Positions 2,563 through 57,392 of a stretch of 64,000 nucleotides of DNA are shown here, one piece after another. The notes beneath the pieces were generated by a model. That model was given only the letters and a program-made list of their open reading frames with translations. It was not told the origin of the DNA and made no database searches. The number at the start of each line of letters is the position of its first letter. Position 1 is the first letter of the stretch. The position numbers were made by a program, and so were the translations under genes. The DNA is from a virus, in IMG/VR virus record IMGVR_UViG_3300015199_000002, positions 1-64,000 of that record, one strand, 5' to 3'.

Positions 2563-4087
2563 AGTAGAGATTGGCAACAGTATGTCGCAGGTCGTCGGAC
2601 TTTCCCCGGAGCAGTTCATGAAGCTCAGAGCCGCCCTTTCTATTCGCGAAGAAGGATACGGCTACTCTTATGTGTCAGCAAAGACTCAGCACAGACTGTT
2701 TGCCATGAGAGGGTACGTTTTTTGTAAAGACACAAAGGGAATTCCGTGCCCTGTTGGGAACAATCCTCTGGGGCACAAAAAGTACCGGAGGTACAAAACG
2801 GTCCGAGAAGCCAAGGACGCAATCGCCTCCAAAAAGCTAGTAATGTATCGAGGAGCCCTTATAAATACCAAAACACTCCTCTCAAAGAAAGGCGAGTTCG
2901 CCACAGGACTCTTGTATCTTGTGTACGAGTGTATTGACTCCTTTTATCAAGAGTACCAAGTTAAGGATACCCGCATAAGGCCCACAAAGCCTCAGCAGGA
3001 CATTTTCACCCTGTCTATGCCTGTTACCCCCTACCCAGAGCAGATTGAAGCCGCTAAGGCCGCTTCTCGTTGGTCTAGAGGCATTATAGCAGCCCCCACA
3101 GGGAGCGGAAAAAGTGTGGTAGCTGCACTTGTTATAAACGAACTTCAAGTTAGGACTCTTTTAGTCGTACCCACACTGGAGCTAAAAAGACAGCTGACCG
3201 AGAGTCTACAGGCTGCCTTCCCGGCGACCACAGTGGGATCCTTAGAATTTTCTCCTGACATCGCAGTGGAGAATGTTGCAGCACTGGACACAAAAAAGAA
3301 GCTTACAGGATATGACTGTGTAATCATTGACGAATTCCATCATGCCGGATCCGACACATATTTATCTCTGAATAAAAAGGCATGGGTAGACGTGTATCAC
3401 CGCGTGGCGCTTACCGCAACTCCCTACCGCAGCAGGTCGGCGGAGCGACTCTTACTTGAGAGCGTATTATCGCAGGTAATTTACAAGGTTGAATACAAGG
3501 ACGCAGTAGCTAACGGCCGGATAGTTCCGCTGGAAGCATTCTATTTCACCCTTCCTCGTACAAAAACAAAACTACCAAAGAGTTGGCCTAATGTGTACAG
3601 AGAAATGGTAGTTGAAAATGAGTACCGCAATTTTGTCATTGCCGACTTTGTCAAGACCCTGGAATATAATGGCTTCTCTACCCTGGTGCTAGTCAAAGAA
3701 GTACGGCATGGAGAGATACTTCAAGAACTTACCGGCGCTAGCTTCGCGCACGGCGACGGCGAGGACTGCGCGGAACTCATTAAACAGTTCAGTAATGGGG
3801 ATCTGAAGACTCTAATAGGCACTACGGGCGTAATTGGTGAGGGCGTAGACTCAAGGGCGGCGGAATGGGTTATTTTATGCGGAGGAGGGCGATCGCGCAA
3901 TCAGTTTGTCCAGCAGTGTGGTCGTGTCTTCCGTCGATTCAAAGAAAAAGAGATCGGGAAGATTGTTCTGTTTAACGACCCCTCAAGCGAATGGCTGAAA
4001 GAGCACTTCAGATTACAATGTACTTATTTGAAAGAAGAGTTTAATATAGAACCCTCAGAACTAGAACTACCAAAGGAGATAAAATGA
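2555..4087 (+). CDS. Superfamily 2 DNA/RNA helicase (UvsW/RadD-like)
   Basis: The 510-residue protein carries an ordered SF2 motif set. Walker A (APTGSGKS) is at about 180-187, a DExH box (DEFH) at 259-262, motif III (TATP) at 287-290, and an arginine-finger motif (QQCGRVFRR) at about 450. The first 150 residues form a phage-type N-terminal extension. Such enzymes remodel branched DNA during phage replication and recombination. The GTG start overlaps the preceding gene. It is not the replicative helicase, which lies at the right end of the window. Confidence 0.9.
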   Translation: MIKVEIGNSMSQVVGLSPEQFMKLRAALSIREEGYGYSYVSAKTQHRLFAMRGYVFCKDTKGIPCPVGNNPLGHKKYRRYKTVREAKDAIASKKLVMYRGALINTKTLLSKKGEFATGLLYLVYECIDSFYQEYQVKDTRIRPTKPQQDIFTLSMPVTPYPEQIEAAKAASRWSRGIIAAPTGSGKSVVAALVINELQVRTLLVVPTLELKRQLTESLQAAFPATTVGSLEFSPDIAVENVAALDTKKKLTGYDCVIIDEFHHAGSDTYLSLNKKAWVDVYHRVALTATPYRSRSAERLLLESVLSQVIYKVEYKDAVANGRIVPLEAFYFTLPRTKTKLPKSWPNVYREMVVENEYRNFVIADFVKTLEYNGFSTLVLVKEVRHGEILQELTGASFAHGDGEDCAELIKQFSNGDLKTLIGTTGVIGEGVDSRAAEWVILCGGGRSRNQFVQQCGRVFRRFKEKEIGKIVLFNDPSSEWLKEHFRLQCTYLKEEFNIEPSELELPKEIK

Positions 4088-4230
4088 TCTTTGATTTAAT
4101 TCTTTTCGCTGTTTTTGTTTTTGCTATAATTACGGTTATAAAAAATGAACTGGAACACGGCAACAAAATGGACCGACTATACGACAACAGAGCGCGAGTA
4201 ATGAATCACATTAGGAACAAAAGGAGATAA
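4084..4230 (+). CDS. Small single-pass membrane protein (48 aa)
   Basis: A very hydrophobic N-terminus (MIFDLILFAVFVFAIITVI) is followed by a basic cytoplasmic-type tail. The ATG overlaps the helicase stop in an ATGA arrangement, and an AGGAGATAA just before its stop serves as the ribosome-binding site of the next gene. The function is unknown. Confidence 0.6.
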   Translation: MIFDLILFAVFVFAIITVIKNELEHGNKMDRLYDNRARVMNHIRNKRR

Positions 4231-4231
4231 A

Positions 4232-4438
4232 ATGAAACCAGTCAGTAGCTCTACCATCAAGGCCATTGGGTACGATGAAAAGACAAAGATTCTAACAATC
4301 CAGTTCGCACACGGAGGCCATTATGAGTACCAAGGAGTGAGTCCGGAACAACACAAAGCTCTGATGGACGCCGAGTCTATCGGGGGCCACTTTCACGACC
4401 ATATCAAGCAGAAACACCTCTATAGAAAGAAACCATGA
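4232..4438 (+). CDS. KTSC-domain protein
   Basis: This 68-residue protein fits the small KTSC family in full: VSSSTIKAIGYDEKTKILTI, then a GGHYEYQGV turn and a SIGGHFHDHIK end. The family is common in phages and near nucleic-acid genes; its biochemical role is not established. The start has AAAAGGAGATAAA in front of it. Its stop overlaps the next start (ATGA). Confidence 0.8.
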   Translation: MKPVSSSTIKAIGYDEKTKILTIQFAHGGHYEYQGVSPEQHKALMDAESIGGHFHDHIKQKHLYRKKP

Positions 4439-5738: not shown

Positions 5739-6074
5739 CTAAATTCTTCTCTGAAAAGGCTTCTTAGGAACGCCCGGAGAAATCTGTATAGGAGCTGCCA
5801 TTGCAGCAGAATGTACCGGTTGAGTAGATTGCACCGGGGGGCTTAACATAGCATGAAGCGAGTGAAACGGATGCATGGCTTGAGGAGCGGGAGCCGATTG
5901 AGCTGGATGTACTGCGGGGAGTTGAGCTGCCAATGGGGCCATGGGAGGAGTTGGGGCAGGAGAGTGCGGGGCCTGTAGCATCTTAGCGAGAGCGGCGTGT
6001 TGGGCTTCTGCTGCCTTGGCTTCGTCTTCAGAGTTTTGATTTGCTGTCTTGTTGAATTGAGAATTGAAAGGCAT
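5739..6074 (-). CDS. Pro/Ala/His-rich hypothetical protein
   Basis: The 111-residue protein has a charged N-terminus and a long low-complexity Ala/Pro/His segment (about 38-98), ending in a basic tail KKPFQRRI. It is the last gene of the leftward morphogenesis block, two bases after the DUF5675 gene. A disordered virion-associated or lysis-accessory role is possible. Confidence 0.55.
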   Translation of the reverse strand: MPFNSQFNKTANQNSEDEAKAAEAQHAALAKMLQAPHSPAPTPPMAPLAAQLPAVHPAQSAPAPQAMHPFHSLHAMLSPPVQSTQPVHSAAMAAPIQISPGVPKKPFQRRI

Positions 6075-6076
6075 AG

Positions 6077-6475
6077 TTACTCCGTAACTGTTAAAGTGAA
6101 GCTTGCGCAGCCGTTTGTCATGGCCATAAATTCTTCGAAGGCTTCTTTGGAATGAAGGATCATTTGATCTCCTAGAGATTTCCCTAATAAAATGCAGCCG
6201 TGGGAATCGTTTTCGTAGTTGCCTGGATGTAGCAAAATGCCCGTGCAGCCAGGCACGTCTTGAATTTCGTAGGTTTTGAATGGGATACCGTTTGAAAGCT
6301 GGTGCGTCCCCAGAACACAGTTGTGGGTGCCCGCGTTAAGTTTAGCTGTAACACTACCATCTTCTTGAGGATACCCGTGCTCGAGGGTGACGAACAAAAT
6401 ATCGCCGGCATCGTTTTGTAACTCCCCGATGACGCCCCATGGATTGTACGATTTTCTTATAAGGTTTAAGTTCAT
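6077..6475 (-). CDS. DUF5675 family protein, candidate lysis enzyme
   Basis: The 132-residue protein carries the DUF5675 hallmark LLHPGNYENDSHGCILLG, with His83, Ser91 and Cys94 in an arrangement like the HxxxxSxGC active site of L,D-transpeptidases. The family is frequent in phages. Its position behind small membrane proteins suggests a role in cell-wall processing or lysis. That role is inference; no classical lysozyme or amidase is seen nearby. Confidence 0.65.
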   Translation of the reverse strand: MNLNLIRKSYNPWGVIGELQNDAGDILFVTLEHGYPQEDGSVTAKLNAGTHNCVLGTHQLSNGIPFKTYEIQDVPGCTGILLHPGNYENDSHGCILLGKSLGDQMILHSKEAFEEFMAMTNGCASFTLTVTE

Positions 6476-6478
6476 ATA

Positions 6479-6652
6479 TTACCTCTTATCCGGCAGGAAT
6501 CCCTGAAGCCCCTTACTTCCAAAAAAAGCCGATGCGCACCACTCGACCCCTTGGACATACTCGTGAGTCAGTTTTCCAGTTAACGACAAAACTGTAAATA
6601 GAAGTATCACCGATCCTAGGGCTATAAGTTCTTCTCTTTCCAGGTAACTCAC
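6479..6652 (-). CDS. Small membrane protein, candidate holin or pinholin
   Basis: This 57-residue frame starts at a GTG overlapping the GIY-YIG stop by four bases (GTGA). It has one membrane segment (LIALGSVILLFTVLSL) followed by a short polar domain with a WCASAFFG segment. It lies directly before the DUF5675 gene, which fits a holin-endolysin pair. A single membrane span without a dual-start motif makes the assignment tentative. Confidence 0.5.
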   Translation of the reverse strand: MSYLEREELIALGSVILLFTVLSLTGKLTHEYVQGVEWCASAFFGSKGLQGFLPDKR

Positions 6653-7488
6653 GTGCCCTCGCTTTCAGCGCGCAGGTCTCTTAGGTACGCAAACCTGAGC
6701 CCTTTGACAGCCTCTTTTTTGCCTTTTACGACCTTTGTTATATCCGTAGGGTACACTCCCAGCTCCTTAGATGCGGCAAGCGCCGAGGGGTAGGTTACCC
6801 CCGTATTAAGACATACGACGGGGATACACTGGCTGACAGCTATGTTTTGTCTGTGCGAAGTAGACAGTTTAGTTCCCTTTTGCGCAGCGGCCATCATTTT
6901 CAACCTGACTATGTTATTGGCCGTCTGCTCTGGAGATTTCGGTCCCATCATTTTCAATCTAGTAGCTTCTGATTTCTTTCTGCCCTTAGTAGACTTAGAA
7001 AGCTTCTCCTTGTGCTCCTCAGAAAGAGCCCTCCCCAGGTGTATCTCTCGCAGTTTTTTCTTATGCTCCTCAGACAGCTTTTTTCCAAAAAATGGATTTT
7101 TGCTTCCTTTTCTGTTTTCGGACATCTTCAGTCTGGTTTCTTTTGAGGGGCTTCGTCCTACTCTAGATAGCGACATTTTTTTCTTGGACTCATCAGAGTA
7201 CTGCTTGCCCTCCCCTCCCGTAGTTAAATTATACCCGTCGGGAGAAAGACTTTGAAAATAGTCTATGAAATATTTTTCGGCTACATTTAGGGTGTCTAAA
7301 TCGGAACATTCGCTCAATACGTCAATAGTAAAGTTGGTAGGTCCGTGCTTAGTTATGGCCTTAGAAATATAAGTCTTAGGATTACTTCTAGGATTTAAAT
7401 GATTTCTCCATCTTCTATTAAGGGGGCCAGTTGTCTGCCCCACATAGCATTTACCGTTAATTTTATTAGTTATTTTATAAATAAGCAT
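6649..7488 (-). CDS. GIY-YIG homing endonuclease with NUMOD3 repeats
   Basis: The 279-residue protein opens with a GIY-YIG nuclease (MLIYKITNKINGKCYVGQT, then NRRWRNHL). Its middle has at least four NUMOD3-type DNA-binding repeats (SEEHKKKL, SKETRLKM and similar). A C-terminal helix-turn-helix-like segment (SALAASKELGVYPTDITKV) resembles I-TevI-type endonucleases. It is wedged in the lysis-like cluster between a holin-like gene and the next small membrane gene, overlapping the latter. It is a mobile gene. Confidence 0.9.
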   Translation of the reverse strand: MLIYKITNKINGKCYVGQTTGPLNRRWRNHLNPRSNPKTYISKAITKHGPTNFTIDVLSECSDLDTLNVAEKYFIDYFQSLSPDGYNLTTGGEGKQYSDESKKKMSLSRVGRSPSKETRLKMSENRKGSKNPFFGKKLSEEHKKKLREIHLGRALSEEHKEKLSKSTKGRKKSEATRLKMMGPKSPEQTANNIVRLKMMAAAQKGTKLSTSHRQNIAVSQCIPVVCLNTGVTYPSALAASKELGVYPTDITKVVKGKKEAVKGLRFAYLRDLRAESEGT

Positions 7489-27709: not shown

Positions 27710-28390
27710 TTAATTCCTGCCCATGACAAAAAAATTATAAATGCTAGTTATATGCTCTTTAAATTGGTCTACTGTATGCATCATTTTAGCTCGGTTGCAG
27801 TGCTTACAACAAGGGACGCAGTTAGAAAGATAGTAGCCTTCTTCGCAATTAACCCTATCTACCCCGTTGACATAATGGATAGAATCTTTATATGTGGACC
27901 GCTGCTGAGGCGTCCTATCACAATAGTTACAATTTTTTATTACCAGAGATCTAAACTCTTCCTCGGAAAGCAAAAATTCGTACCCGCGCTCTTTAGCAGA
28001 ACCCTTGTACTTCGAGTACAGGTGTCTTACTGCGTCGTATTTGGGCCTAAATTTAGTTCTTAGTTTTCTTTTTATGCTCCTGCCGTACATATCTTTCGAT
28101 GCTCTCTTGGCGATCTGATAAATTGACATGTCGGATCTTCCGTCAAGTTCTGGGTAAGTTTTAATTAGTTTTTCTGTGGACATGGAGGAGTAGTCGTCTA
28201 TAAATTTTATTTTTTTATCCGCTCCCCACCCCAAAAAATATTCCTTGGATAGGCGCAACTGTACGGCTTTATCTTTTATAGACGACACAGTGTGGGGGCT
28301 TAGCTTAATAGCTAAGTCATTAAAAGATAAATTTTTAAAGTTATCTTTCAGACTAGTTATTTCTGTGTCTGTCCATCTATTTCTTAGCAT
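27710..28390 (-). CDS. HNH homing endonuclease
   Basis: The 226-residue protein has a Myb/SANT-like N-terminus (RWTDTEITSLKDNF) followed by a basic middle. Its C-terminal HNH domain has CNYCDRTP, then NGVDRVNCEEGYYLSNCVPCCKHC in two halves. It is inserted exactly between two structural genes, one base after one stop and with its own stop abutting the next ATG, whose ribosome-binding site lies inside its end. It is a mobile gene. Confidence 0.85.
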   Translation of the reverse strand: MLRNRWTDTEITSLKDNFKNLSFNDLAIKLSPHTVSSIKDKAVQLRLSKEYFLGWGADKKIKFIDDYSSMSTEKLIKTYPELDGRSDMSIYQIAKRASKDMYGRSIKRKLRTKFRPKYDAVRHLYSKYKGSAKERGYEFLLSEEEFRSLVIKNCNYCDRTPQQRSTYKDSIHYVNGVDRVNCEEGYYLSNCVPCCKHCNRAKMMHTVDQFKEHITSIYNFFVMGRN

Positions 28391-30784: not shown

Positions 30785-32347
30785 CTAGAAGCCCAAATGG
30801 TAGGTGTTTAAGGCACTGACCGTAGTTGGGGCAGCTCCGCCTGTTAACCTAGCGCCGCTGGCGCTCACTCCGCCAGTCCCTGAGATGGTGGTCATGTTCC
30901 CGTAAATACCGGGGGCTATGGCGGTTAAAGTAACCACCGAGCTTGGGCTATTCGTAGGAGTAGCCAAAGTGTCCGTATTCGTGTCAAACGTGATCGCACC
31001 GGTGCGTGCCATCGCAGCTCCTGTGATGGTCGCTCCCGTGTTGAACGTGATGCTTGCAAGGGCGACGATAATGCCCTTCATTACAGACGTGGTTCCAAGA
31101 GTCGCCGAACTGCCGACTTGCCAGAACACGTTACCTGCCTGAGCTCCGCCTGTGAGTACCACAGACGCCGCAGAGGCCGCCGTCAACGTGCTTCCGATTT
31201 GGAACACGAATGTGTCATTAGCGCCACCGTGTAGGGTGAGCGTTCCGGTCAACTGAGCAGAGGTGTTAAACGTATACACACCAGGAGCGAGTGTCATTCC
31301 GCCCAGGTTCTGTCCAGAGAGGTTCTCGTTCGAGGGAAGAGCTGCTAGGTAGTTGTAGATCGACGTTGCAGCAACCTGAGCATTAGCCGCTGCCGTATTA
31401 GCAACGTCCGATGACCCAGATACGGTAGGAGCGCCCGTTACAGAGGTTCCGGGGCTGAGTGCCAAAGAGCCCGTAATAGTTGTGCTACCGGTGTTTGTGA
31501 TCGTCGAGGAAGCAATTGCAGCGTAAGTTGCTGCAGCTCCCATAACAGGGGCAAGAGGCCCTGCACCAGGAGTTCCGCCAACCGGCTTAACTACCGAGGT
31601 AACGAACGGGTTAATGCTCGTATTGGCCGCGATAGCCGCAGACAGGTTAGCCGCCGTTTCTGCGTCTGTAAAGCCTTGCTCGTACTGAACGCTGCTTACA
31701 GCGCTTCCCGTGATCGTGTGCGTGAAGGTGAAGCTTGTCGGAGCAGATCCGTCAGCAACCGCGGTAGCGACGCCAGCAGCGTTATTGGTAACGATAACAT
31801 GACCAGAAGCTCCTGAGGTAAGCGTTACGTTGACTGTAGGTAGAGCAGCGGCAGCAGCAACCGTAGCTAGAGCAAGAGTAGCGGCAGAGGCATTAGTAGC
31901 ACCTGCAACCATGATGCCCGTTCGGCTAGCAGGAGCAGGGTCAACGCCCGCGCCGTTAATGTTGTACCAAACATAGTACTTATGCGCCGCTGATTGGTCT
32001 TGGAAAATGAAAAATTTACTGTTCAAACTGCCGGCAGTGTCTGCAGTCAGCGTAATGTTTGTCGTATCTCTGTGATCGACATCTGTCAGGGTAACTCCGT
32101 TAATGATCGCTGTGTTACCAGCTGCGCTTCCTGATAGAGTCAAAGTGCCGCTAGCGAGCACTGCGTCGCCAGAGTTAACTTGGGAGGTGAAATAGCAGTC
32201 GCGGTTGCCGATTGAGGCGGCGGAGAAGAACCTTGCTGCGTATACGGCTTCGACTCGAGGTTTCGAGGACGGGCGAAGGAGGAGATCCTTACACGTCTGA
32301 AAAGCTTCTGTTCTGTGAGTGATTACGAGAGTAGTTTGGTTAGGCAT
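30785..32347 (-). CDS. DUF3494 (ice-binding-like) domain virion protein
   Basis: The 520-residue protein has a phage-type N-terminus (about 1-60), a beta-rich middle, and a full DUF3494 domain at about 272-462. The domain is recognisable from GSTTITGSLALSPG, NLGGMTLAPGVYTF, GGANDTFVFQIGSTL, GGAQAGNVFWQVG and GASITFNT-like strands. DUF3494 proteins are beta-solenoids that include bacterial ice-binding adhesins; binding to ice is not implied for every member. It lies directly after the capsid gene and its terminator, in a structural operon, and has no signal peptide. Confidence 0.8.
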   Translation of the reverse strand: MPNQTTLVITHRTEAFQTCKDLLLRPSSKPRVEAVYAARFFSAASIGNRDCYFTSQVNSGDAVLASGTLTLSGSAAGNTAIINGVTLTDVDHRDTTNITLTADTAGSLNSKFFIFQDQSAAHKYYVWYNINGAGVDPAPASRTGIMVAGATNASAATLALATVAAAAALPTVNVTLTSGASGHVIVTNNAAGVATAVADGSAPTSFTFTHTITGSAVSSVQYEQGFTDAETAANLSAAIAANTSINPFVTSVVKPVGGTPGAGPLAPVMGAAATYAAIASSTITNTGSTTITGSLALSPGTSVTGAPTVSGSSDVANTAAANAQVAATSIYNYLAALPSNENLSGQNLGGMTLAPGVYTFNTSAQLTGTLTLHGGANDTFVFQIGSTLTAASAASVVLTGGAQAGNVFWQVGSSATLGTTSVMKGIIVALASITFNTGATITGAAMARTGAITFDTNTDTLATPTNSPSSVVTLTAIAPGIYGNMTTISGTGGVSASGARLTGGAAPTTVSALNTYHLGF

Positions 32348-32414
32348 TGTCTTATTTCCTTATGACCCCGGGATTTTTTTGAACAGCGCGTTTGGGGCAA
32401 TAGTACTGTTCGTT

Positions 32415-32459
32415 TAAAAAAGAGTCAGGGCCAGCAAGCGTTTTAAGCTTGCCAGCCCT
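32415..32459 (-). terminator. Rho-independent terminator after the capsid gene
   Basis: On the minus strand a 13-bp stem, AGGGCTGGCAAGC with GCTTGCTGGCCCT (two G-U pairs), closes a seven-base loop and is followed by CTCTTTTTT. It lies directly after the capsid stop. A partial terminator here would lower expression of the genes after the capsid. Confidence 0.9.
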
Positions 32460-32475
32460 AACTATTACCTAACAA

Positions 32476-33762
32476 TTAAGTAGGTTGGATCTGCGTGAAC
32501 TTAACAGTGTGGGCAGGAGCTTCGATCAAGATAGCTTGATCGGTATAAGCTCTGGTTACCCATCCGTTCGTGCTCTGGTTCTGGAACAGATATTCTTCTT
32601 GTCCAGTCGGCCCTTCGCCGCGGAACGAGATGTCCGTCGAACCAACGCGTTGGATGATGTCAAGAGGAAGCGCGAACGCATCGCCTGACTTCACCATCGG
32701 GTGTGGTACGAGTTCGATCACGCCATTCTGTCCGTAGAATGTAACCGTTTCAAAGCCGTTTTCAGCCTTCTTCTTGGAATAGCTGCCGTCAAACTTACGT
32801 TGAGCCGCGAGGTCAGACATAATGTTTGCGAACGAGTCTGGGTTCATGAGAAGAGCAACGTCTTCCATCAAACCACGACCGACTGCGAGAGCGAGACCCG
32901 AGAGGATTTTACCCATCGAGAATTCTGCAGTTCCGCAAGGATAGATGTTACCCTGCCAGAGATTGTAGGTCGTAGCGTTAATGTTGAACAACGTTCCGGT
33001 GTTCGTCATGATGGCGTCGATGCCCGTCATTTCGTTACCGAAGGCGCCGTAGAAGAAGAACGTAGCCGCGAGGCCTGCTCCGTCGACGGCCGTCAAGTCA
33101 GCGCTGTTTCCAGAAACGGAAATAGTGTGAAGTGAAGCGTTGACTGCAGTCACAACGATAGCAGCGTTCGTGTTCAGCTGTGAAGAGACGTTATACGCAT
33201 CGAGAGACGCGTTTTCCATCCCAGACCAGATTCCGTTTGCCCAAGTGGCAGGAGAAATCGTATAAGTACGAGTTCCGCCTGAACCAGAGGTAGAAAGAAC
33301 CTGACCGATACCGGTAGAAGATCCACCGTAAATCAGAGCAATTTCAACGCGCTTCGTTGCAGAGAGCTTCATGCGTTCCATCAAGAGACGGACAGCTTGC
33401 TCTACGCAAGTTTCGCCTTTTGACTGGGCGCGGGACACGGCGCCGTAGCTGATGCCGGACTGGAGCGTGAGCTCCGAGCCAGGAATCTGAGCATCTTGCA
33501 TTTGCATGCTGATTGCGCTGTTGAGGTTGTAGTTGAGCGCCGAGTTCCCACCGTAGGTGAAACCGTGCTCGTCTGAGACCACGACCGGGAGGTGGTACTT
33601 GTCCCCTAGGAGCGCCGCTCGAGCGAACGGAAGACGCTTCTGGAGAATACCCCAATCTGGAATTAAGTCTTTAACTTCACGGGAATAGATCTGTCTGAAG
33701 AGACCGTTTAGGGTCGCTCCGACGTTGGTATTTGTGCCCTGGTTCGAAGATGGTTGAGCCAT
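32476..33762 (-). CDS. Major capsid protein
   Basis: The 428-residue protein has features of podovirus capsid proteins: FRQIYSREVKDLIPDWGIL, LPFARAALLGDKYHLPVVV and DEHGFTYGG near the N-terminus, with no membrane segment. Its own leader and a strong terminator behind it fit a very highly expressed gene. It is separated from the scaffold gene by several repeat-protein genes, which is unusual. Confidence 0.85.
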   Translation of the reverse strand: MAQPSSNQGTNTNVGATLNGLFRQIYSREVKDLIPDWGILQKRLPFARAALLGDKYHLPVVVSDEHGFTYGGNSALNYNLNSAISMQMQDAQIPGSELTLQSGISYGAVSRAQSKGETCVEQAVRLLMERMKLSATKRVEIALIYGGSSTGIGQVLSTSGSGGTRTYTISPATWANGIWSGMENASLDAYNVSSQLNTNAAIVVTAVNASLHTISVSGNSADLTAVDGAGLAATFFFYGAFGNEMTGIDAIMTNTGTLFNINATTYNLWQGNIYPCGTAEFSMGKILSGLALAVGRGLMEDVALLMNPDSFANIMSDLAAQRKFDGSYSKKKAENGFETVTFYGQNGVIELVPHPMVKSGDAFALPLDIIQRVGSTDISFRGEGPTGQEEYLFQNQSTNGWVTRAYTDQAILIEAPAHTVKFTQIQPT

Positions 33763-40631: not shown

Positions 40632-40729
40632 ATGTCGCAATTCAACTATTGCGACAATTTATGTCGCAATTCAACTATTGCGACAATTTATGTCGCAATT
40701 CAACTATTGCGACAATTTATGTCGCAATA
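40632..40729. repeat. Tandem 29-bp palindromic repeats (3.4 copies)
   Basis: Three full units and part of a fourth, starting at 40632, 40661, 40690 and 40719, each contain TGTCGCAAT, a six-base spacer and ATTGCGACA, a perfect nine-base inverted repeat. They fill the gap between the scaffold stop and the next start on the minus strand. They may be processing or attenuation hairpins, or a cluster of operator sites. No spacer sequence is present, so this is not CRISPR. Confidence 0.9.
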
Positions 40730-41683
40730 CTACACTCCCATGTTTCTTTTGCGCTTCGTGAACTCTCTCCAGCTTCCTCGATCTTGAGCGGGAGGGGCTT
40801 CAGTCTGCGATTCAGCGGGCTTAGAGAACTTGGGGTTCGCACTCTTCAATTGCTTCACCTTGGCTTTGGTGATGGCCTTGATGATGTCTTCTCCGAATAG
40901 CGAGATCAGTTTGTCTCCGTCGAGCGCTCCGTCTGCGCCTTTGTACCCGGATACGCGTTCTTGGAACTCTTTGTCATAGTCTTCGCGAGCGATCTTAGCG
41001 AGCTGTTCGGCAGGCATTTCCCAGCCGTTCTTGTTGCTAACGCGTTGAAGTTGTGCCATTCGTGCAATTGACCATGGAGTCTTAGGAACACCGGAGTCTT
41101 CTAATGCTTTTGTGAACAGTTTGTCAAGGCGGGTAATCTGTGCACGTTCTTCAGCCGTTGCAGCTTCCCGTTTCTTGGATTCTTCTCTTACCAACTCCGC
41201 TCTCTTAGCTTCTTCTGCGCGCTCAGCTTCTTTGGCTTCATAGGAGCGAACTTTTTCTTCGAGTTCGCGTTCTTTCTTAGCCGCAGGAGATTCTTGTTCT
41301 CGTTTGATAATTTCAGTGAGAGTTTCTTCTGAGAACTTGCGGAGGTCGATACCGAGTTTCTCCATGGCGACTTTTGGGTTCTCTTTAAGCATCTTGAGAA
41401 CGGCTTCGGTTTCTTTCCGGGACATCGCAGCGTCTTGAAATCTGCGGTTAGCTACTGAAGCCTGCTGAGCTAACTTAATCACGTCTTCTTCTGGAAGTTC
41501 AATATCTGCACCCTCAAGTTTCAACTTGAGTTTGCGAATTTCTTTAGCGGTGGGAGCAGGAGCTTCTGCTGCCGCGGGCGCCGCTACCTTTTCTGTGGCT
41601 GGAGCTACCTTGGTGACGTCTGAAGCCAACGAAGGCGTACTTGCGGGCGGGGCTACTGCTGGGGTTTCTACTGATTGTGACAT
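40730..41683 (-). CDS. Scaffolding protein
   Basis: The 317-residue protein has a low-complexity Ala/Pro start, a long charged helical middle (KKERELEEKVRSYEAKEAE, RREAATAEER-like) and a basic C-terminus ending in FTKRKRNMGV. This composition and its place after the portal gene are typical of podovirus scaffolds. The ATG follows AAAAAGGAGACATCAAA inside the end of the GIY-YIG gene. Confidence 0.75.
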   Translation of the reverse strand: MSQSVETPAVAPPASTPSLASDVTKVAPATEKVAAPAAAEAPAPTAKEIRKLKLKLEGADIELPEEDVIKLAQQASVANRRFQDAAMSRKETEAVLKMLKENPKVAMEKLGIDLRKFSEETLTEIIKREQESPAAKKERELEEKVRSYEAKEAERAEEAKRAELVREESKKREAATAEERAQITRLDKLFTKALEDSGVPKTPWSIARMAQLQRVSNKNGWEMPAEQLAKIAREDYDKEFQERVSGYKGADGALDGDKLISLFGEDIIKAITKAKVKQLKSANPKFSKPAESQTEAPPAQDRGSWREFTKRKRNMGV

Positions 41684-42369
41684 TTTGATGTCTCCTTTTT
41701 AGTTATTAATTGCGCGTTGTAGTATGTCAGGGTTGAAGTGTTTTCTTGCCGCCCCAACAACATGGCGGAAAGAGTCTGCTGTGTAATTTTTATTTTTGAA
41801 GCCGCAGACTTTATAGATTCAAATATTTCTCCAGTAACAGAGTCTACTATTTTTATTCGGCTGTGCGCCGGATGACTTATGCCTTTTTTGGCAGCGCTCA
41901 TTTTTGCTCTAGTTTCTTCCGACCTTACTGCTCCTAGGGCATTCTTATTGCCCGCGAGTGCTTTAGATATTTTAATCCCGGTCGCTGCTGGCCTTTTAAG
42001 TCCTAGATGTCCGTTTGGTTTTCCAGTTTTAGATTCTGAAAGCTTTCTTCTCATTTCTTCCGATCTTACTAACCCCTTAATGCCGGTGGAGTTATCGCCA
42101 CCTTTGGCTATATTGTAGCCGTCTGGAGTTAGTGCCTGGAAGTAATCTATGAAAAAGATCTCGGAGTCATTCAACTGCTCTTGAGATGCGCACCCGCTCA
42201 CCGTGTCTACGGTGAATGACTCGGCTCCATATTTTTTAATGGCTCTAGATAGCAGCGGGCAGCCACTATTTTTAGCCTTATGTTTTGACCATCGGGCTTC
42301 TAAAGACTGAACGGTCTGCCCTATGTAGCACTTTCCGTTCACTTTATTTGTGATTTTATATATTACCAT
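41668..42369 (-). CDS. GIY-YIG homing endonuclease
   Basis: The 233-residue protein starts MVIYKITNKVNGKCYIGQT (GIY-YIG core), continues SLEARWSKH, and has NUMOD3-type repeats (SEEMRRKLSESKTG, SEETRAKMSAAKKG) and a C-terminal helix-turn-helix-like segment. It is packed between the portal and scaffold genes and overlaps the scaffold start. It resembles the gene at 6649 and is mobile. Confidence 0.9.
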   Translation of the reverse strand: MVIYKITNKVNGKCYIGQTVQSLEARWSKHKAKNSGCPLLSRAIKKYGAESFTVDTVSGCASQEQLNDSEIFFIDYFQALTPDGYNIAKGGDNSTGIKGLVRSEEMRRKLSESKTGKPNGHLGLKRPAATGIKISKALAGNKNALGAVRSEETRAKMSAAKKGISHPAHSRIKIVDSVTGEIFESIKSAASKIKITQQTLSAMLLGRQENTSTLTYYNAQLITKKETSKCHNQ

Positions 42370-42371
42370 TT

Positions 42372-44453
42372 TTATTGCCCCGTTGATGCTTTCATATTCG
42401 CATATGCTTCTTGCGCCGCCGGTGTCGCCGCCTTGGGCAAGTTCGGCAATCCGGACGGCTTAATGGACTCGGCCTGCTGCATCCCGGGAGGGGTCGGGTT
42501 CTGCGTAGCTGGCATACCTGGTCCTGGAGGGCCGACAGGCTTTGGCGGACCCCCCTGTCCTGGAGGAGGGGGCGAGGCGGCTTGGCCAGGAGCAGGAGGG
42601 GCGCCTGGAGGCGGCATAGGAGTAAGCGGAGTCTGACCGAGAAGCGTCAGAAGCTGAGGGTCGCCGTTCTTAAGGGCGTCAATGTGGTCCTGGATATGCT
42701 TGGTCACTGCGTTGACAATAGCCGGCGTACTTCTTGCTTCTGGCGAGTCCAGGCAGGTAGAATGCTCCTTGATGTGCTCAACATGCTGGTCTGTGATAAC
42801 GACCATAACATTTTTACCGTCCTGGAGATCTTCGTTCTCACTTCGGATGTTTAGGATCTGGCTGGTCTCGTGCTCATACAAGGAGTCAATAGTGCCGGTG
42901 GTGATCACTTCGAAGTAATGGGCGGGGTTCGTGATCATTTTGTTCTGGAGAAGATCCTGCGCTTCCTGCAATCTTCCAGCAGGTGTTTTTGAGATAGGGT
43001 TAACTGTCTCAACGCACACTCTGTTGATGCCGTCAAGGTCGGATCCTTTGAATGCCTGCACTCGGAACCGGTTGCTTTTTCCGGCGATGCTTGCAATTCT
43101 CGGTGTTGCTGCATAGTCCTGTAGGATCTCAATCAACCCAGTGCCGACGTCCTCTAGGAGTCGGTTATAGGATTGCTGCAGGCCACTGTTGAATTGCACC
43201 GCTTGGGCGGCAACGAGGGCTAGGGCTGCGCCAGAGTGAAGGGAACTTTCCGGGTTACCGCGGGCGACACTGTTGATACCGGAGAGGGTTTCCATCAAGT
43301 GCTGAACTCGGTCAAGCTGACTGAAGATTTCAGCCGGGGTTTGCACCAGGTTCAGGGGCTCTGGTTTTCCGATGTTCTTATCATACTCAATGGCATTCAA
43401 GCCTTGAGCAAGAGCCACTACGTTGATCTCAGCACCACGAGGAATCAGGATGTTCTGAGTCCCGTAGTTCATCTGGTTGGTGGTGATGATAGACATCAAG
43501 GAGCTATAGATCTTCTGTAGCCCCATCAGGTCATAGGCCACCGTGTATCCGAACGGGGTACCAAAGAATTCAGCGGGAGCTATGCGGTAGATAGGAATAT
43601 GTTTGAATGCTAAGGGTCCATCGTTAAGATAGACGTCAACGTCAACAAATTCCATCTGCCGGCCGTTGGGAAGAGCAGGGGTGGGTTCGTGATAGAACTT
43701 ATACACCGGGATATAGTCGCCGTTAGTGTATGCATCGAATGTCAGGAATGAGTACCGGGAAAAGTAGTCAGGCGACTTAGATATGGACAGGATGTCGTTG
43801 GATTTGTCTGGGTACTTTGCTGCCAGATCGTATTTATTCTTAAACTCGCGTACGCACTTCCACGGCGGTCCTGCATTTGATTCTGACCAGCACTCGCGGA
43901 TCACGTCTAGAGGATGGAACGTGTTGAACACTGCGTCGCCGTCGTAGATGGGCTGTCCATTTTCTCCAACATCGTAGATCTGCCCTTTTGTGGCATCCCA
44001 GTCAAGAGTTACAAACCCCTCGCCTGAGATAATCGCTAGCTCTGTTGCCCTCTTTAATTCTATCTCGAGCCTTTTCTCCATCATGTAATAATCAAGTACT
44101 GAGCGGGCCAGAATTGTCTGATTAGCAGACTTAGAGTCGGTATTTTGCGCCGTCGGCTGAAGTGCAGGCCGTTGCGATGTAGTTAAGGTGAGAAGATTCT
44201 GAAGAAGGGAGCGGTAGTGATTGGGAATGCTGACGTAAAGTTCGCCATTCATGCCGCCTTGGTTTAATTTCGAACTATCCATTCCGGCCTGGGTGATCCC
44301 ATAATATGCTAAGTAGGATCTCTTCCACTTATCCAAGAATTGGAATTTTGAGGTGAACATGTAAAAGTCCATAATTTTTTTGCTGAGGGTTCTGGTAAGG
44401 TCTTCAGGAGAAGCTGCTCCCCAATATTGGTCTGTCGTTGCGCCGATACTCAT
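42372..44453 (-). CDS. Portal protein
   Basis: The 693-residue protein has the length and content of podovirus portals: KWKRSYLAYYG then YVSIPNHYRSLLQNLLTLT near the start, and a portal core with VFNTFHPLDVIRE and PIYRIAPAEFFGTPFG. A Pro/Gly-rich C-terminal tail starts near residue 610. It follows the large terminase, the usual order. The tail is a low-complexity proline run that may be flexible inside the capsid. Confidence 0.85.
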   Translation of the reverse strand: MSIGATTDQYWGAASPEDLTRTLSKKIMDFYMFTSKFQFLDKWKRSYLAYYGITQAGMDSSKLNQGGMNGELYVSIPNHYRSLLQNLLTLTTSQRPALQPTAQNTDSKSANQTILARSVLDYYMMEKRLEIELKRATELAIISGEGFVTLDWDATKGQIYDVGENGQPIYDGDAVFNTFHPLDVIRECWSESNAGPPWKCVREFKNKYDLAAKYPDKSNDILSISKSPDYFSRYSFLTFDAYTNGDYIPVYKFYHEPTPALPNGRQMEFVDVDVYLNDGPLAFKHIPIYRIAPAEFFGTPFGYTVAYDLMGLQKIYSSLMSIITTNQMNYGTQNILIPRGAEINVVALAQGLNAIEYDKNIGKPEPLNLVQTPAEIFSQLDRVQHLMETLSGINSVARGNPESSLHSGAALALVAAQAVQFNSGLQQSYNRLLEDVGTGLIEILQDYAATPRIASIAGKSNRFRVQAFKGSDLDGINRVCVETVNPISKTPAGRLQEAQDLLQNKMITNPAHYFEVITTGTIDSLYEHETSQILNIRSENEDLQDGKNVMVVITDQHVEHIKEHSTCLDSPEARSTPAIVNAVTKHIQDHIDALKNGDPQLLTLLGQTPLTPMPPPGAPPAPGQAASPPPPGQGGPPKPVGPPGPGMPATQNPTPPGMQQAESIKPSGLPNLPKAATPAAQEAYANMKASTGQ

Positions 44454-44459
44454 TGTTAA

Positions 44460-46001
44460 TTATCTCCTGAACTTTCTATCTTTTGAATTTGAAAATACGC
44501 TGGGCATCTGTGCTGCCAAGTCTCTCTGCGCCGGCTCCTCTTTTGGAGCAAGAAGTTTCTTTAGGCCTGACATCGACGCATTGTTGTATCTGTCATCTTT
44601 TATGACCATGCCGCGAACATTTAACTTATAGTTCGGTGGGAACGGGTTGCTGTATCTGTTTATGTTCCTGACAAAGTACTGGAGCGCGGCTAAGAGGTCG
44701 AAGTGGCCATTCTCGCTGTCTCTGCAGAAGCTTGTCCTGGCCGGATTCCAGGTGGCGTCTTCTATCTGCCCGATAAGTTTCTGGCACCGGGGGTGGATAA
44801 TCAGCTTGTAGCCCTGGATGTCAAGTCGAATAGAATTCGCTTGAGCTTCTACATTGTCTTTGTTCGTAACCATCCCGATCGGGTAACGGTGGACAGTGTT
44901 TATGTCGTTGATCGTGAATGCCTGTCCGTCTGCGATGCGGTTAGTGGCTTTCATGGGCTCTTCTCCCCATAGCGCGACTTCTTTTTCTCTACAGGCTTTC
45001 ACCAGTGTTGCTGAGTTGACGCCCTTAAGTAAAAGTTCGTCTTCGATTACCACGAAGCCCTTGGGAAAGTGATAGTATCCGAATAGGACGCCGCAGAAGT
45101 CAACTAGACCTAAATCGGCAGACACCAGCGAGTGGAAGAAGTCGGGGCGAACGATGTCGTCGCGTACTAGGTGTTCTTTAAATTTTGACCATTCGGGGAT
45201 CACTGCGTTTACTTCGTCAATCAAAAAATTACACAAATATTCTCGTTGAAATGTTGAGCTATTATAGCCGCCGGTCTCTCTATACTGGTCTGCGATTCTG
45301 TCTACGTCTGCCTTGGAAAATTTCTTGACGTCAAGAATAGTCTGCTTTAAGTATAGGCCGTCTTCCTGCGCGCGCCGCGTGAATATCTTTACGAACGGGT
45401 GCCCGGGGGTCATGGGGGCGTTGGATAGCAGGATCATTGCTCCGCCCGTGGTTGTAGTCATGGGAGAAAGAACAGAGTTCACCGCGGTCTCAAGGTGATC
45501 TATGAACCCGGCTTCGTCGACCACGATCTTATGCGCCGTGAGTCCTCGTATCTTTTGAAGTCTTCCGCCATCCAACCCAGTGAGCTTAATAGTAGAGCCG
45601 TTAGTGAAAACGTACTGGTTGTACTGAGTCTTTAGCTTTGCGCGCAAATCTTCTGGGGCATCTTTAAAAATTTCTTGGTACGAAGGAAGGATCATGTCCT
45701 TGACAGCCTTCTGCGTCGCTCCTGTGTATAGAATAAAGCTACCCGGGTGAGTCAGCGCGTATTCTATGCAAATTACGGCTGCCATAAAAGTTTTTCCAGA
45801 GCGTCTGGAGGCGTTTAGAACAAATCTACTGTTAGGGATTTCGGCTGCTTTTTTTATGGCTGCGTACGCAACTTGCTGATGAGACTCTAGCTTCCAGGAA
45901 AGATCGCCCTTCCTCCACAACGAAGCGGTTATCTGACGTCTGGCGGACTCTTTCTTACCGGCTAATTCCTCGGCTGTTATTGTTTCGCTAACGTCTTGCA
46001 T
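44460..46001 (-). CDS. Large terminase subunit (TerL)
   Basis: The 513-residue packaging motor has an ATPase with Walker A SRRSGKT at 65-71 and Walker B IVVDEAGF near 159-166. A nuclease domain begins at SLVSADLG with Asp296 as a likely metal ligand and has a further acidic site in NGHFDLLAALQYF near 450. It cuts and pumps DNA into the prohead through the portal. It starts three bases after the preceding gene. Confidence 0.92.
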   Translation of the reverse strand: MQDVSETITAEELAGKKESARRQITASLWRKGDLSWKLESHQQVAYAAIKKAAEIPNSRFVLNASRRSGKTFMAAVICIEYALTHPGSFILYTGATQKAVKDMILPSYQEIFKDAPEDLRAKLKTQYNQYVFTNGSTIKLTGLDGGRLQKIRGLTAHKIVVDEAGFIDHLETAVNSVLSPMTTTTGGAMILLSNAPMTPGHPFVKIFTRRAQEDGLYLKQTILDVKKFSKADVDRIADQYRETGGYNSSTFQREYLCNFLIDEVNAVIPEWSKFKEHLVRDDIVRPDFFHSLVSADLGLVDFCGVLFGYYHFPKGFVVIEDELLLKGVNSATLVKACREKEVALWGEEPMKATNRIADGQAFTINDINTVHRYPIGMVTNKDNVEAQANSIRLDIQGYKLIIHPRCQKLIGQIEDATWNPARTSFCRDSENGHFDLLAALQYFVRNINRYSNPFPPNYKLNVRGMVIKDDRYNNASMSGLKKLLAPKEEPAQRDLAAQMPSVFSNSKDRKFRR

Positions 46002-51575: not shown

Positions 51576-52118
51576 ATGAAGAAATACAAACTACGGCTAG
51601 ATCTTAAGTTAGAAGTGTACAGTAAGACTCTCTATAGAATCGAGAGGTTACGTGACGGCAAACCTACAGGCGACGTAGGCGGTTACATTGAGAGTGAAGC
51701 TAACCTCTCCCAAGACGGCACCTGTTGGGTGTACGGCGACGCTTGGGTGTACGGCAACGCTCGGGTGTCCGGCAACGCTTGGGTGTTCGGCAACGCTTGG
51801 GTGTTCGGCAACGCTCAGGTGTACGGCGACGCTCTGGTGTACGGCGACGCTCGGGTGTCCGGCGACGCTTGGGTGTCCGGCGACGCTTGGATATCTTCAG
51901 TAAATGAAATAGTTAATTTCATAATTGCATTCAGTTTTTCTATCACTATAACTCCCGATAACATTGCAATAGGGTGTCAACTAAAAAAGCGTTCGGAATG
52001 GCTTAAGGTGTCAATCGACGACGCCGAGAAGATGGGCCTGCCTCGCGAACTATTCCCTCAGTACAGGAAGCTTGTTAAGATCGGAATGAAACTGGTCCCT
52101 AAAAGGAGTTCAAAATGA
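51576..52118 (+). CDS. Hexapeptide-repeat (beta-helix-like) protein
   Basis: The 180-residue protein has three parts. An N-terminal segment (about 1-52) is conserved in all three copies. A repeat domain (about 53-105) has WVYGDA, RVSGNA, WVFGNA, QVYGDA, LVYGDA and so on. The C-terminal domain is unlike that of 53249. In the repeats Val, Gly and Ala codons are nearly fixed (GTG, GGC, GCT), and variation sits in three codons and changes the residue. It follows ATTGGAGGCAGT, the same leader as 53249. A left-handed beta-helix fold is inferred. Confidence 0.85.
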   Translation: MKKYKLRLDLKLEVYSKTLYRIERLRDGKPTGDVGGYIESEANLSQDGTCWVYGDAWVYGNARVSGNAWVFGNAWVFGNAQVYGDALVYGDARVSGDAWVSGDAWISSVNEIVNFIIAFSFSITITPDNIAIGCQLKKRSEWLKVSIDDAEKMGLPRELFPQYRKLVKIGMKLVPKRSSK

Positions 52119-52907: not shown

Positions 52908-53252
52908 ATGGCAATCGAGCATGACATCAGGAAAGCAATGATACTCGCCTCTGACATATTCCAAGACGAGCCCGGTACAGACGAAGAGATCGAGATCCTA
53001 CAGAGTATTCCTAGTCTTGGGCGCGATAGAGTTGAGTGCATAGATGCACGCATGCCTACATTGTTCGATGAGTTGTATGACGCGGAGATGAGTCTTCAGG
53101 TGAAACTTCTCGTCCTCGCGTGCGCACGGGGGATTGGGCTTCCAGTACCTTCGCTTGAGGTTGGTGTGGTGTCGGCTATGCATAGAGCTATTGGTTTGCG
53201 CGCTGAGTATTTGGCTTCGGATGAAGGTGAACTAGAATTGGAGGCAGTATGA
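52908..53252 (+). CDS. Hypothetical protein (114 aa)
   Basis: The protein is acidic and mostly helical, with LQVKLLVLACARGIGLPVPS in the middle. AAGAAAGGAATTCAT precedes the start. Its stop overlaps the next hexapeptide gene (ATGA), whose leader ATTGGAGGCAGT lies inside this gene's end. Confidence 0.6.
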   Translation: MAIEHDIRKAMILASDIFQDEPGTDEEIEILQSIPSLGRDRVECIDARMPTLFDELYDAEMSLQVKLLVLACARGIGLPVPSLEVGVVSAMHRAIGLRAEYLASDEGELELEAV

Positions 53253-53791
53253 AGAAATACAAGCTACGGTTAGACCTTAAGTTAGAAGTACACGGAACAA
53301 CTCTCTATAGAATCGAGAGGTTACGTGACGGCAAGCCTACAGGCGACGTAGGCGGTTACATTGAGAGTGAAGCTAACCTCTCCCAAGACGGCACCTGCTG
53401 GGTGTACGGCAACGCTCTGGTGTACGACAACGCTCGGGTGTACGACAACGCTCGGGTGTACGGCGACGCTTGGGTGTTCGGCAACGCCCTGGTGTACGGC
53501 AACGCTTGGGTGTTCGGCAACGCTCTGGTGTCCGGCAACGCTTGGGTGTCCGGCGACGCTCGTATTGATTCAATTGATGCGATAATAGTTTTAACCATAG
53601 CCGCGTCATATTCAGTAACCATAACAAGAACTCTTATTTTTGCTGGATGCGCTAAAATAAGCCGATCTAAGATCAACAGCATGACTGCCAAACAATTCCA
53701 AAGGATAGGGGGTAATCCCAAATACTTTAAGGCGTACAAACAAATGGTCTTGGGCGCCATGCTTATAGTCAAACCTAAGAAAGCGAAATGA
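53249..53791 (+). CDS. Hexapeptide-repeat (beta-helix-like) protein
   Basis: The 180-residue paralogue of 51576 has an almost identical first 52 residues, eleven six-residue units with a different order of variants (LVYDNA, RVYGDA, WVFGNA), and a distinct C-terminal domain. DNA identity extends into the leader. The same length but different end suggests exchange of modules between copies. Confidence 0.85.
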   Translation: MKKYKLRLDLKLEVHGTTLYRIERLRDGKPTGDVGGYIESEANLSQDGTCWVYGNALVYDNARVYDNARVYGDAWVFGNALVYGNAWVFGNALVSGNAWVSGDARIDSIDAIIVLTIAASYSVTITRTLIFAGCAKISRSKINSMTAKQFQRIGGNPKYFKAYKQMVLGAMLIVKPKKAK

Positions 53792-55220: not shown

Positions 55221-55562
55221 ATGCGATCATGGTGGCCTATTGAAGCATCTATACTAGATAACAAGCGCCTTCTGGGCGAACATAATGAATTACTTATTAT
55301 GGCCAGAGCAATCGCCGGGATAAACAAAGGATATAGAAATCATCCTGAAACTAAACGGTGGATAGGTCATTCAAAAGCAATGAAGCGACGACACAACGAA
55401 TTAGCTGATGAAATGGAAAAAAGGGGATTTAATCACAAAAGTCCTTGGCCTGATAATGTTATGAATTCGGATGATACCGACGCTTGGCCAAATACTTTTT
55501 GGGAATCCCTTGATGTTATGAAAACAAAACTAGCTGAGAAAATGGGAAAGGAAACTCTATGA
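55221..55562 (+). CDS. Pyrimidine dimer DNA glycosylase (endonuclease V-like)
   Basis: The 113-residue protein matches the T4 endonuclease V family: LLGEHNELL, GYRNHPETKRWIGH, then HNELADEMEKRGFNHKSPWP. These proteins cut at ultraviolet-induced pyrimidine dimers. The start at 55221 follows AAAGGAGAATTT. In T4 the residue after Met is the nucleophile; here it is Arg, as in several bacterial relatives. It would repair phage DNA or host DNA after damage. Confidence 0.75.
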   Translation: MRSWWPIEASILDNKRLLGEHNELLIMARAIAGINKGYRNHPETKRWIGHSKAMKRRHNELADEMEKRGFNHKSPWPDNVMNSDDTDAWPNTFWESLDVMKTKLAEKMGKETL

Positions 55563-56182
55563 CAAACAACAAAGGTTTTACCCTAATCGAAACAATGATC
55601 GCGATGGGGCTCATGTGCCTAGGAGCCCTAGCTTTCGCGCAGATTGTCACCAACATGGGTCTGGCCCAGAATTGGAGCGACTTCAGACTTGCTACAAACT
55701 CCCTGGCGTCTTCTATGGTCGGGAGCTTGAATAACCCAGCAAGTTGCACACAGGGGTTTTCGGGTATTACTTTTGTGCCTACTGGCAATCCTGTGCCGGT
55801 TAGCTTTGGCCTACCGAACAGGGTCCTAGGTGCCGGAGTTATCGTGCCAAACTACAAGTTGAGCATCTTGTCTCTTAACTTCATTAACTACGTTCCGGTT
55901 CAGAATAATCCAGACGGAAGTGTAACGTACTTTGGGGATCTGTCCATGACAACTAAAGCCAGCAAGAAAGTGCTGGGAGGAGACACGTCTACTGTAGTTG
56001 TCGACTCTATCTACTTGACGACTATGGCAAGTTTGGTAGTGGCTTGCGGTAACGTCTCACCTCCTTCTCCGAGTCCCTCTCCGTCGCCGACTCCAGACCC
56101 TACACCGCTACCATCTCCGGTTCCGACATACACCTATACGCCGGAACACAACGATTCGCCTTGCGATCACGATAACCATTAA
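55559..56182 (+). CDS. Type IV prepilin-like protein
   Basis: The first residues are a canonical class III signal, MTNNKGFTLIETMIAMG: a short basic leader, Gly6, then Phe7 and Glu11 (position +5 of the mature protein). A 20-residue hydrophobic helix follows. The body is beta-rich, and the C-terminal 40 residues are a Ser/Pro linker (PPSPSPSPSPTPDPTPLP) and a His/Asp-rich end. Length (207 aa) suits minor pilins or pseudopilins. Its ATG overlaps the glycosylase stop (ATGA). Maturation would need the host prepilin peptidase. Confidence 0.85.
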   Translation: MTNNKGFTLIETMIAMGLMCLGALAFAQIVTNMGLAQNWSDFRLATNSLASSMVGSLNNPASCTQGFSGITFVPTGNPVPVSFGLPNRVLGAGVIVPNYKLSILSLNFINYVPVQNNPDGSVTYFGDLSMTTKASKKVLGGDTSTVVVDSIYLTTMASLVVACGNVSPPSPSPSPSPTPDPTPLPSPVPTYTYTPEHNDSPCDHDNH

Positions 56183-56633: not shown

Positions 56634-57392
56634 ATGAGAATTGCATTACTTATTTGTCTTGTGGCTTTAGCCGGATGTGAGCAGCAACAGGACTTGATCT
56701 CTAATGGCACGAATGGTGCCACAGGCGGTACCGGTGCTAATGGATCGGACGGGTCGCAAGGTGCAACCGGTGCCACAGGTGCTCAAGGCGAGGCCGGAGC
56801 AGCTGGGTCCATAGGTAGGGCTGGGAGTACAGGGGTAAACGGCGCTATGGGCATTCCTGGGTCTAATGGGACAAATGGCGCTAACGGTGCGGCCTGCCAG
56901 CAGGGGGCTAAGGGTGCCTCCGGCGCTACCGGAGCTTCTGGGCTAAACGGCGTTTCAGGTAAGAACGGATCTACTGGTGCCTCTGGAGCCAACGGTTCAA
57001 CTGGACTGAATGGGTCTGCCGGGACTGGCGGCGGTAGCGGGACTAAGGGCGCTACCGGTGCAACAGGGGCGACAGGCGCTAGTGGCCTTAAAGGACCTAC
57101 TGGGAATACAGGGGCTACAGGACCCCAGGGACTTAAAGGCGACCAGGGAGGCAAGTGCGGCACCCGAGTCTCTTTCGTCCTGAAGGCATTCTCATGCCTA
57201 AAGATTACAACGGATTACCACGCTACTGTTTGCGAGAGAGGCATTACGTTGCATAAGAGTGAGAGGTGCGATGATGACTATGACAAGGTATTAGTCATTG
57301 ACAAGGACCACCATGCTCTCTATATCAACGGCGTTCTATACTTGAAAGACAGCGCCAATGACTCTATACTTGATACTATTGATTTTAACTAA
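56634..57392 (+). CDS. Collagen-like lipoprotein
   Basis: A short signal peptide ends in a lipobox (LVALAGC, Cys15). Residues 24-174 are Gly-X-Y triplets rich in Asn, Thr and Ala (GATGATGAQGEAG), with one interruption near 86-90 containing Cys. The last about 75 residues are a separate domain with four cysteines. Collagen-like triplets form trimers, so it would be a lipid-anchored triple-helical protein at the cell surface. It is in the same operon as the prepilin. A virion function is less likely because of the lipobox. Confidence 0.85.
   Translation: MRIALLICLVALAGCEQQQDLISNGTNGATGGTGANGSDGSQGATGATGAQGEAGAAGSIGRAGSTGVNGAMGIPGSNGTNGANGAACQQGAKGASGATGASGLNGVSGKNGSTGASGANGSTGLNGSAGTGGGSGTKGATGATGATGASGLKGPTGNTGATGPQGLKGDQGGKCGTRVSFVLKAFSCLKITTDYHATVCERGITLHKSERCDDDYDKVLVIDKDHHALYINGVLYLKDSANDSILDTIDFN

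Follow-up and report, generated by a model that had tools for sequence, protein, structure and literature searches.

The DUF3494 beta-solenoid, a modular domain of virion proteins in at least some phages

In at least some phages, the DUF3494 beta-solenoid is a modular domain of virion proteins, and it occurs in several unrelated families of these, including sheath, baseplate and fibre-like proteins. We analysed a 64,000-nucleotide stretch of viral DNA (hereafter the window) in which a single gene directly downstream of a major-head-like phage gene carries this domain. This gene probably encodes a virion protein in which the solenoid serves as a display domain for surface adhesion. The domain itself, its modular placement, its carriage by sheath and baseplate proteins in related contigs, and the presence of neighbouring paralogs without it were all observed directly.

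The window gene, its domain and its surroundings

An earlier note on this DNA had placed the carrier gene at the correct coordinates; its strand is here corrected to minus, the plus-strand reading having 14 stops (Table 1). The encoded protein matched the PF11999 (Ice_binding) profile over residues 278-458, far over the family cut-off (E = 1.6e-51; 175.4 bits against 28.7; profile positions 2-206 of 208). The match is far beyond chance, and the DUF3494 domain that the earlier note had recognised in this gene is real. Against the NCBIfam equivalog IBP_CFB (NF045625) the protein scored 89.3 bits, below the 400 required for membership of that family. A sequence search of solved structures returned 26 sequences, 25 of them DUF3494-type ice-binding or antifreeze proteins with E <1e-13, and the best relative was 6eio (E = 1e-39). 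The entry 6bg8 was named otherwise in this search, and its structure title gives a DUF3494 domain.

Structure prediction, as had been proposed earlier, gave a beta-solenoid that superposes on solved ice-binding proteins. The AlphaFold2 model, built on a 66-row alignment, had block-mean pLDDT values of 95-98 over residues 271-450 and 90 over residues 451-460, the flanks lying mostly below 50, and the helix that braces the solenoid was modelled at residues 318-335. Superposition on 7bwy gave Z 34.1 and rmsd 1.1 over 198 residues, and that on 6eio gave Z 33.0 and rmsd 1.5 over 207 residues at 42% identity. The window domain has the same fold as the DUF3494 ice-binding proteins 6eio, 7bwy and FfIBP (4nu2) over about 200 residues (Z 31-34), together with the same kind of repeated Thr/Ser face. 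A viral structure library yielded three matches to the domain at E <=0.001, none of them a phage protein and all of them DUF3494 proteins labelled Hyperionvirus, a giant virus.

DUF3494 occurs once in the 82,984-base virus record that includes the window, and the nearest row to it in the domain tree was that of carrier L006, at 63% identity. The N-terminal flank shares its KYYVWYN..DPAPA stretch with the proteins of four other carriers (L002, L075, L078 and L085). No annotated virion relative of the flanks was found, and a scan with the N-terminal flank gave one locus, situated on the contig of L002. A hydrophobicity heuristic stayed under its threshold for the window protein, in agreement with the earlier view that it has no signal peptide.

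Table 1. Features of the window, and viral carriers elsewhere with a virion protein family
Feature	Coordinates	Strand	Details
Carrier gene, 520 aa	30785..32347	-	ATG start; AAGGAA 8 nt upstream (32356-32361)
DUF3494 / PF11999 beta-solenoid, residues about 262-460	30968..31564	-	Profile, solved relatives, model
N-terminal flank, residues 1-261	31565..32347	-	KYYVWYN..DPAPA stretch; without confident fold
C-terminal flank, residues 461-520, and stop codon	30785..30967	-	Without relative among fetched loci
Intrinsic-terminator-like hairpin, gap between head gene and carrier gene	32423..32463	-	17 pairs, T tract; folding z -6.4
Major head protein-like gene	32476..33762	-	phrog_14242, E 6.7e-10
Portal gene	42372..44453	-	phrog_156, P22_portal; PHROG and Pfam profiles
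Terminase large subunit	44460..46001	-	phrog_2; PHROG match
L005 carrier, tail sheath			phrog_279, E 2.6e-32
L051 carrier, tail sheath			phrog_279, E 1.7e-25
L045 carrier, tail sheath			phrog_2839, E 5.5e-30
L059 carrier, 2580 aa, baseplate			phrog_6, E 5.7e-30; PF04865 (Baseplate_J), E 3.5e-16
L057 carrier, tail-fibre-like over 73 residues			phrog_1980, E 9.2e-08

Read along the minus strand, the gene order is terminase, portal, several genes without a clear name, head protein and carrier gene. Both parts of the placement given in the earlier note, directly downstream of the capsid gene and within the phage structural block, were upheld, as the neighbouring gene matches a major head family and the terminase, portal and head genes share the strand of the carrier. 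Gene order and relatives together point to a protein that is probably on the particle. Given the hairpin in the gap and its own AAGGAA, the carrier gene may be expressed apart from the head protein. Phage T7 has a terminator after its capsid gene, and the position of the window hairpin directly after the head gene recalls it.

Towards the high end of the window there are genes for a DNA polymerase and a DnaB-like helicase. At 40632-40728, in the gap separating two virion-block genes, a 29-bp palindromic unit, ATGTCGCAATTCAACTATTGCGACAATTT, is present in 3.3 perfect copies in tandem, an array that may have a regulatory or terminator role. ORFs named by eye as GIY-YIG-like or HNH-like homing endonucleases (41668-42369, 6649-7488 and 27710-28390, all on the minus strand) sit inside or beside virion genes. 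On the plus strand, 51576-52118 and 53249-53791 encode two proteins of 180 aa that resemble each other and carry YdcK-type beta-solenoid repeats (PF18836), a second solenoid type in the same phage as DUF3494. The plus strand also encodes a prepilin-like protein with an N-terminal methylation motif (55559-56182; PF07963, E 5.8e-07) and a collagen-repeat protein (56634-57392; PF01391, E 1.9e-20) whose start looks lipoprotein-like by eye.

Insertion and permutation among viral carriers

The IMG/VR collection was scanned with an alignment of three phage DUF3494 copies, which gave 99 related stretches, and the best 80 of the 99 were used. These were pooled with loci from earlier searches; once identical and contained sequences had been removed, 75 carriers remained, the window included, with near-copies still among them. 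Among the matches listed, the domain was internal in 58 of these carriers, circularly permuted in 5, near the N-terminal end in 6 and near the C-terminal end in 6. When 24 carriers including that of the window were scanned against PHROGs, five had a family at E <=0.01 (Table 1); no family reached this threshold in the remaining 19, which include the window protein. The C-terminal part of the L005 sheath has relatives in carriers L080, L081 and L084, and the relationship extends to the N-terminal end in L081 and L084; L081 itself received no PHROG name in the scan.

Across 70 viral records, some being near-copies of one another and with 7 further carrier records left out, DUF3494 was found in at least two separate ORFs in 21 (14/50 plus 7/20 new). 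Terminase phrog_2 was present in 11 of 50 carrier records, many of which are short contigs. Searches of the cultured 'phages' collection by tblastn, with the window protein, the window domain, the L002 protein and the L033 domain as queries, returned no match under a low-complexity filter that may hide matches. Homologs have been reported in Synechococcus phage S-SKS1 (PMC11515562, partial text), and these went unseen by tblastn. For both reasons, no claim is made that the domain is absent from cultured phages.

Next to each of five small carrier genes lies a paralog that lacks DUF3494 (L004, 62% identity; L070, 60%; L050, 48%; L079, 47%; L013, 36%). Their flanks form five separate clusters, and the alignments cross the insertion point. 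These pairs were obtained by BLAST of the joined flanks with composition adjustment, at E up to 1e-6 and identity of at least 30%; four L022 rows (repetitive proteins, other loci), a cross-locus L050/L015 row and a weaker L013 paralog (31%) were left out. For the window gene, no domain-free paralog was found. Run without composition adjustment, the joined-flank BLAST gave junction-spanning matches in 69 of 100 carrier ORFs (duplicates included); these were set aside because the majority resemble artefacts of sequence composition in repetitive fibre proteins.

A tail sheath from a cultured phage offers a comparison for the sheath carriers. Of 19 'phages' records matching the L005 sheath, the best was the tail sheath of Myxococcus phage Mx1 (WNM70095.1). 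Its C-terminal half aligns with L051 and L005 at 31-32% and its N-terminal end with L081 at 39% over residues 1-156, whereas its middle, where the carriers have DUF3494, does not align. PF11999 had no match in the Mx1 record, in which the control profiles were silent as well, and the same search matches all 70 carrier records. Our own DUF3494 profile, run at full sensitivity against the Mx1 sheath, gave nothing significant.

In the five permuted carriers (L005, L051, L080, L081 and L084), the C-terminal part of the profile, starting from position 31-40, comes ahead of the N-terminal part. Since a single protein accounts, in variant forms, for L080, L081 and L084, the five amount to about three cases. 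A 951-aa frame in record G053 has the permuted order too, with the second piece falling under the family cut-off. As the DUF3494 solenoid is discontinuous and has its first coil packed next to its last, the two termini of the domain come to lie near each other, and the permuted order would yield a solenoid without a break in sequence. The model of the L051 sheath had a mean pLDDT of 46; its C-part aligns with residues 48-203 of 7bwy (Z 21.0), and its permuted N-part (residues about 321-360, pLDDT about 54-62) has a short helix and strands like those of the window domain. A closed permuted solenoid is suggested by the order of the parts in sequence and by this strand pattern. The permuted copies would then represent a naturally occurring rearrangement of a solenoid for loop insertion.

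Cellular relatives and the threonine-rich face

GTDB genomes contained 288 DUF3494 relatives, of which the best 80, from many phyla, were used. Among the matches listed, a signal-peptide-like start preceded the domain in 83 of 94 cellular carriers versus 14 of 71 viral ones, by a crude hydrophobicity threshold that admits several of the 14 viral cases although they are unlike signal peptides. Unlike the cellular copies, which mostly have such a start, the window domain is internal to a phage protein. By eye, the secreted-looking viral carriers were L012, L018, L033 twice (2874-4352 and 5848-6582) and L047; here the genes may be of host type, or the viral records may contain host DNA.

A quick tree of 170 domains (73 viral, 97 cellular), with 63 of 167 forks open and with sampling biased in that both sets are top matches to phage queries, contained 12 changes between virus and cell, 5 of them forced by starred branches. 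A single viral clade was therefore rejected. Viral copies cluster nonetheless, the mean after shuffling being 55 such changes.

The b-face of the window domain has two columns, reading T-S-Q-T-T-S-A (column 2) and T-T-T-T-G-T-T (column 4) in a coil register taken from the hydrophobic pattern and not from coordinates. A flat Thr-rich face was what the earlier note had advised looking for and, as far as sequence tells, a regular face rich in small residues and Thr is present. Over 40 viral rows, the 14 face positions had a mean conservation of 0.837 against 0.64 for random positions (1 of 10,000 draws as high); over 23 cellular rows, the values were 0.851 and 0.721 (99 of 10,000 draws). Since the 23 cellular relatives conserve the face to about the same degree, it does not discriminate ice binding, and the Thr ladder may be partly structural. 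The relatives sampled include members of Thermomicrobiaceae (L101) and Streptomonospora (L116) and a Thermoplasmata archaeon (L136), none of which is, to our knowledge, known for cold adaptation.

PF11999 has been reported from many ice-free habitats, and column 2 is described as Ala or hydrophobic in sequences from polar marine environments and glacier ice and as richer in Ser/Thr in those from frozen sediment, rock and the subsurface (PMC12337378, partial text). If the columns correspond, column 2 of the window domain, being mostly polar, would resemble the type from frozen sediment, rock and subsurface. With the face shared by cellular relatives and the family found in ice-free habitats, the suggestion in the earlier note that the domain binds ice or helps particles persist in icy water is not established.

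Surface adhesion and its alternatives

A DUF3494 domain would fold by itself and, because its termini end close together, could drop into loops of unrelated proteins or permute. Present in many copies per particle, it would turn a flat Thr/Ser-rich face outwards, and the displayed faces would provide weak, multivalent adhesion to an ordered, hydroxylated surface, candidates being the host envelope, exopolysaccharide, mineral or organic particles, and ice. Such adhesion would hold phages near their hosts. The decoration or adhesion role that the earlier note had offered is plausible; the presence of the window protein on the particle, its adhesive action and the target of that action are what we infer. 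Adhesion is the best-supported action, with ice as a possible target. Speaking for this reading are the gene order, the modular placement, the sheath, baseplate and fibre-like carriers, the neighbouring paralogs without the domain, the records with repeated copies, the lower share of signal-peptide-like starts in viral than in cellular carriers, and the conserved face of the viral rows. Counting against it are the 19 of 24 scanned carriers that lack a PHROG family, the flanks of the window protein and the missing domain-free paralog of its gene, the small share of carrier records with phrog_2, the similar conservation of the face in cellular rows, and the secreted-looking viral carriers. Phage Ig-like domains (Hoc and the extra domains of sheaths) have likewise been added to several virion proteins, outside the assembly core, but have an immunoglobulin-like fold where the window protein has a DUF3494 solenoid. 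For the additional domains of sheaths, most of them Ig-like, a link with adhesion or stability has been reported (PMC9230969, partial text, in the accessible part of which DUF3494 is not named among them), and adhesion has been proposed for the Ig-like domains of Hoc (PMC10385173, partial text).

Ice itself would make a specific target, the displayed solenoid adsorbing the particle to ice crystals or inhibiting recrystallisation around it, which would protect phages through freeze-thaw or concentrate them with their hosts in brine. The closest solved relatives were deposited as ice-binding or antifreeze proteins and the window domain has a regular two-column face, but about the same face is shared by cellular relatives whose groups have no known cold adaptation. 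Moreover, if the columns correspond, column 2 of the window is mostly polar, in contrast to the Ala or hydrophobic residues of polar marine and glacier sequences (PMC12337378, partial text), and we regard ice binding by the displayed solenoid as unlikely. That virions bind ice, with DUF3494 arrays on heads, sheaths and baseplates (some permuted) adsorbing to ice/brine interfaces, we consider rather unlikely.

Stabilisation of the sheath has been suggested for extra sheath domains (PMC9230969, partial text), and the face, being about as conserved in cellular copies, may be structural; the solenoid might then be an inert spacer that merely pads or cements neighbouring virion subunits. Its recurrence in unrelated proteins with different neighbours and the conservation of its exposed face argue against this, and we find it quite improbable. 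In print, three PF11999 genes of Arctic viral contigs have been interpreted as auxiliary genes with a possible role in guarding the host against freezing, and the same paper refers to an antifreeze protein from viruses of the Southern Ocean (PMC11515562, partial text). These belong to the same family and likewise come from viral contigs, but their reading is one of host cryoprotection and assigns no virion role in the accessible text. A product made in the infected cell and protecting the host from freezing would suit the about five viral carriers that have a convincing signal peptide by eye. The window protein, however, shows no signal peptide and lies in a structural block, and the majority of related copies form part of larger proteins, among them sheath and baseplate proteins, which makes an auxiliary gene very improbable here.

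A literature search that covered neither subscription papers nor supplements found nothing joining DUF3494 with phage, and neither a virion role nor virion ice binding of the domain. The earlier statement that its function in a phage had not been described needs amending insofar as viral PF11999 genes are in print (PMC11515562, partial text), and stands for the virion role, which was not found.

If the display of DUF3494 for surface adhesion is correct, another widespread fold would join the few promiscuous display domains of virions, and some viral 'ice-binding' genes at least would move from host cryoprotection to particle biology. It also opens the direct question of whether carrier phages adhere to ice or to other surfaces via their DUF3494 domains.
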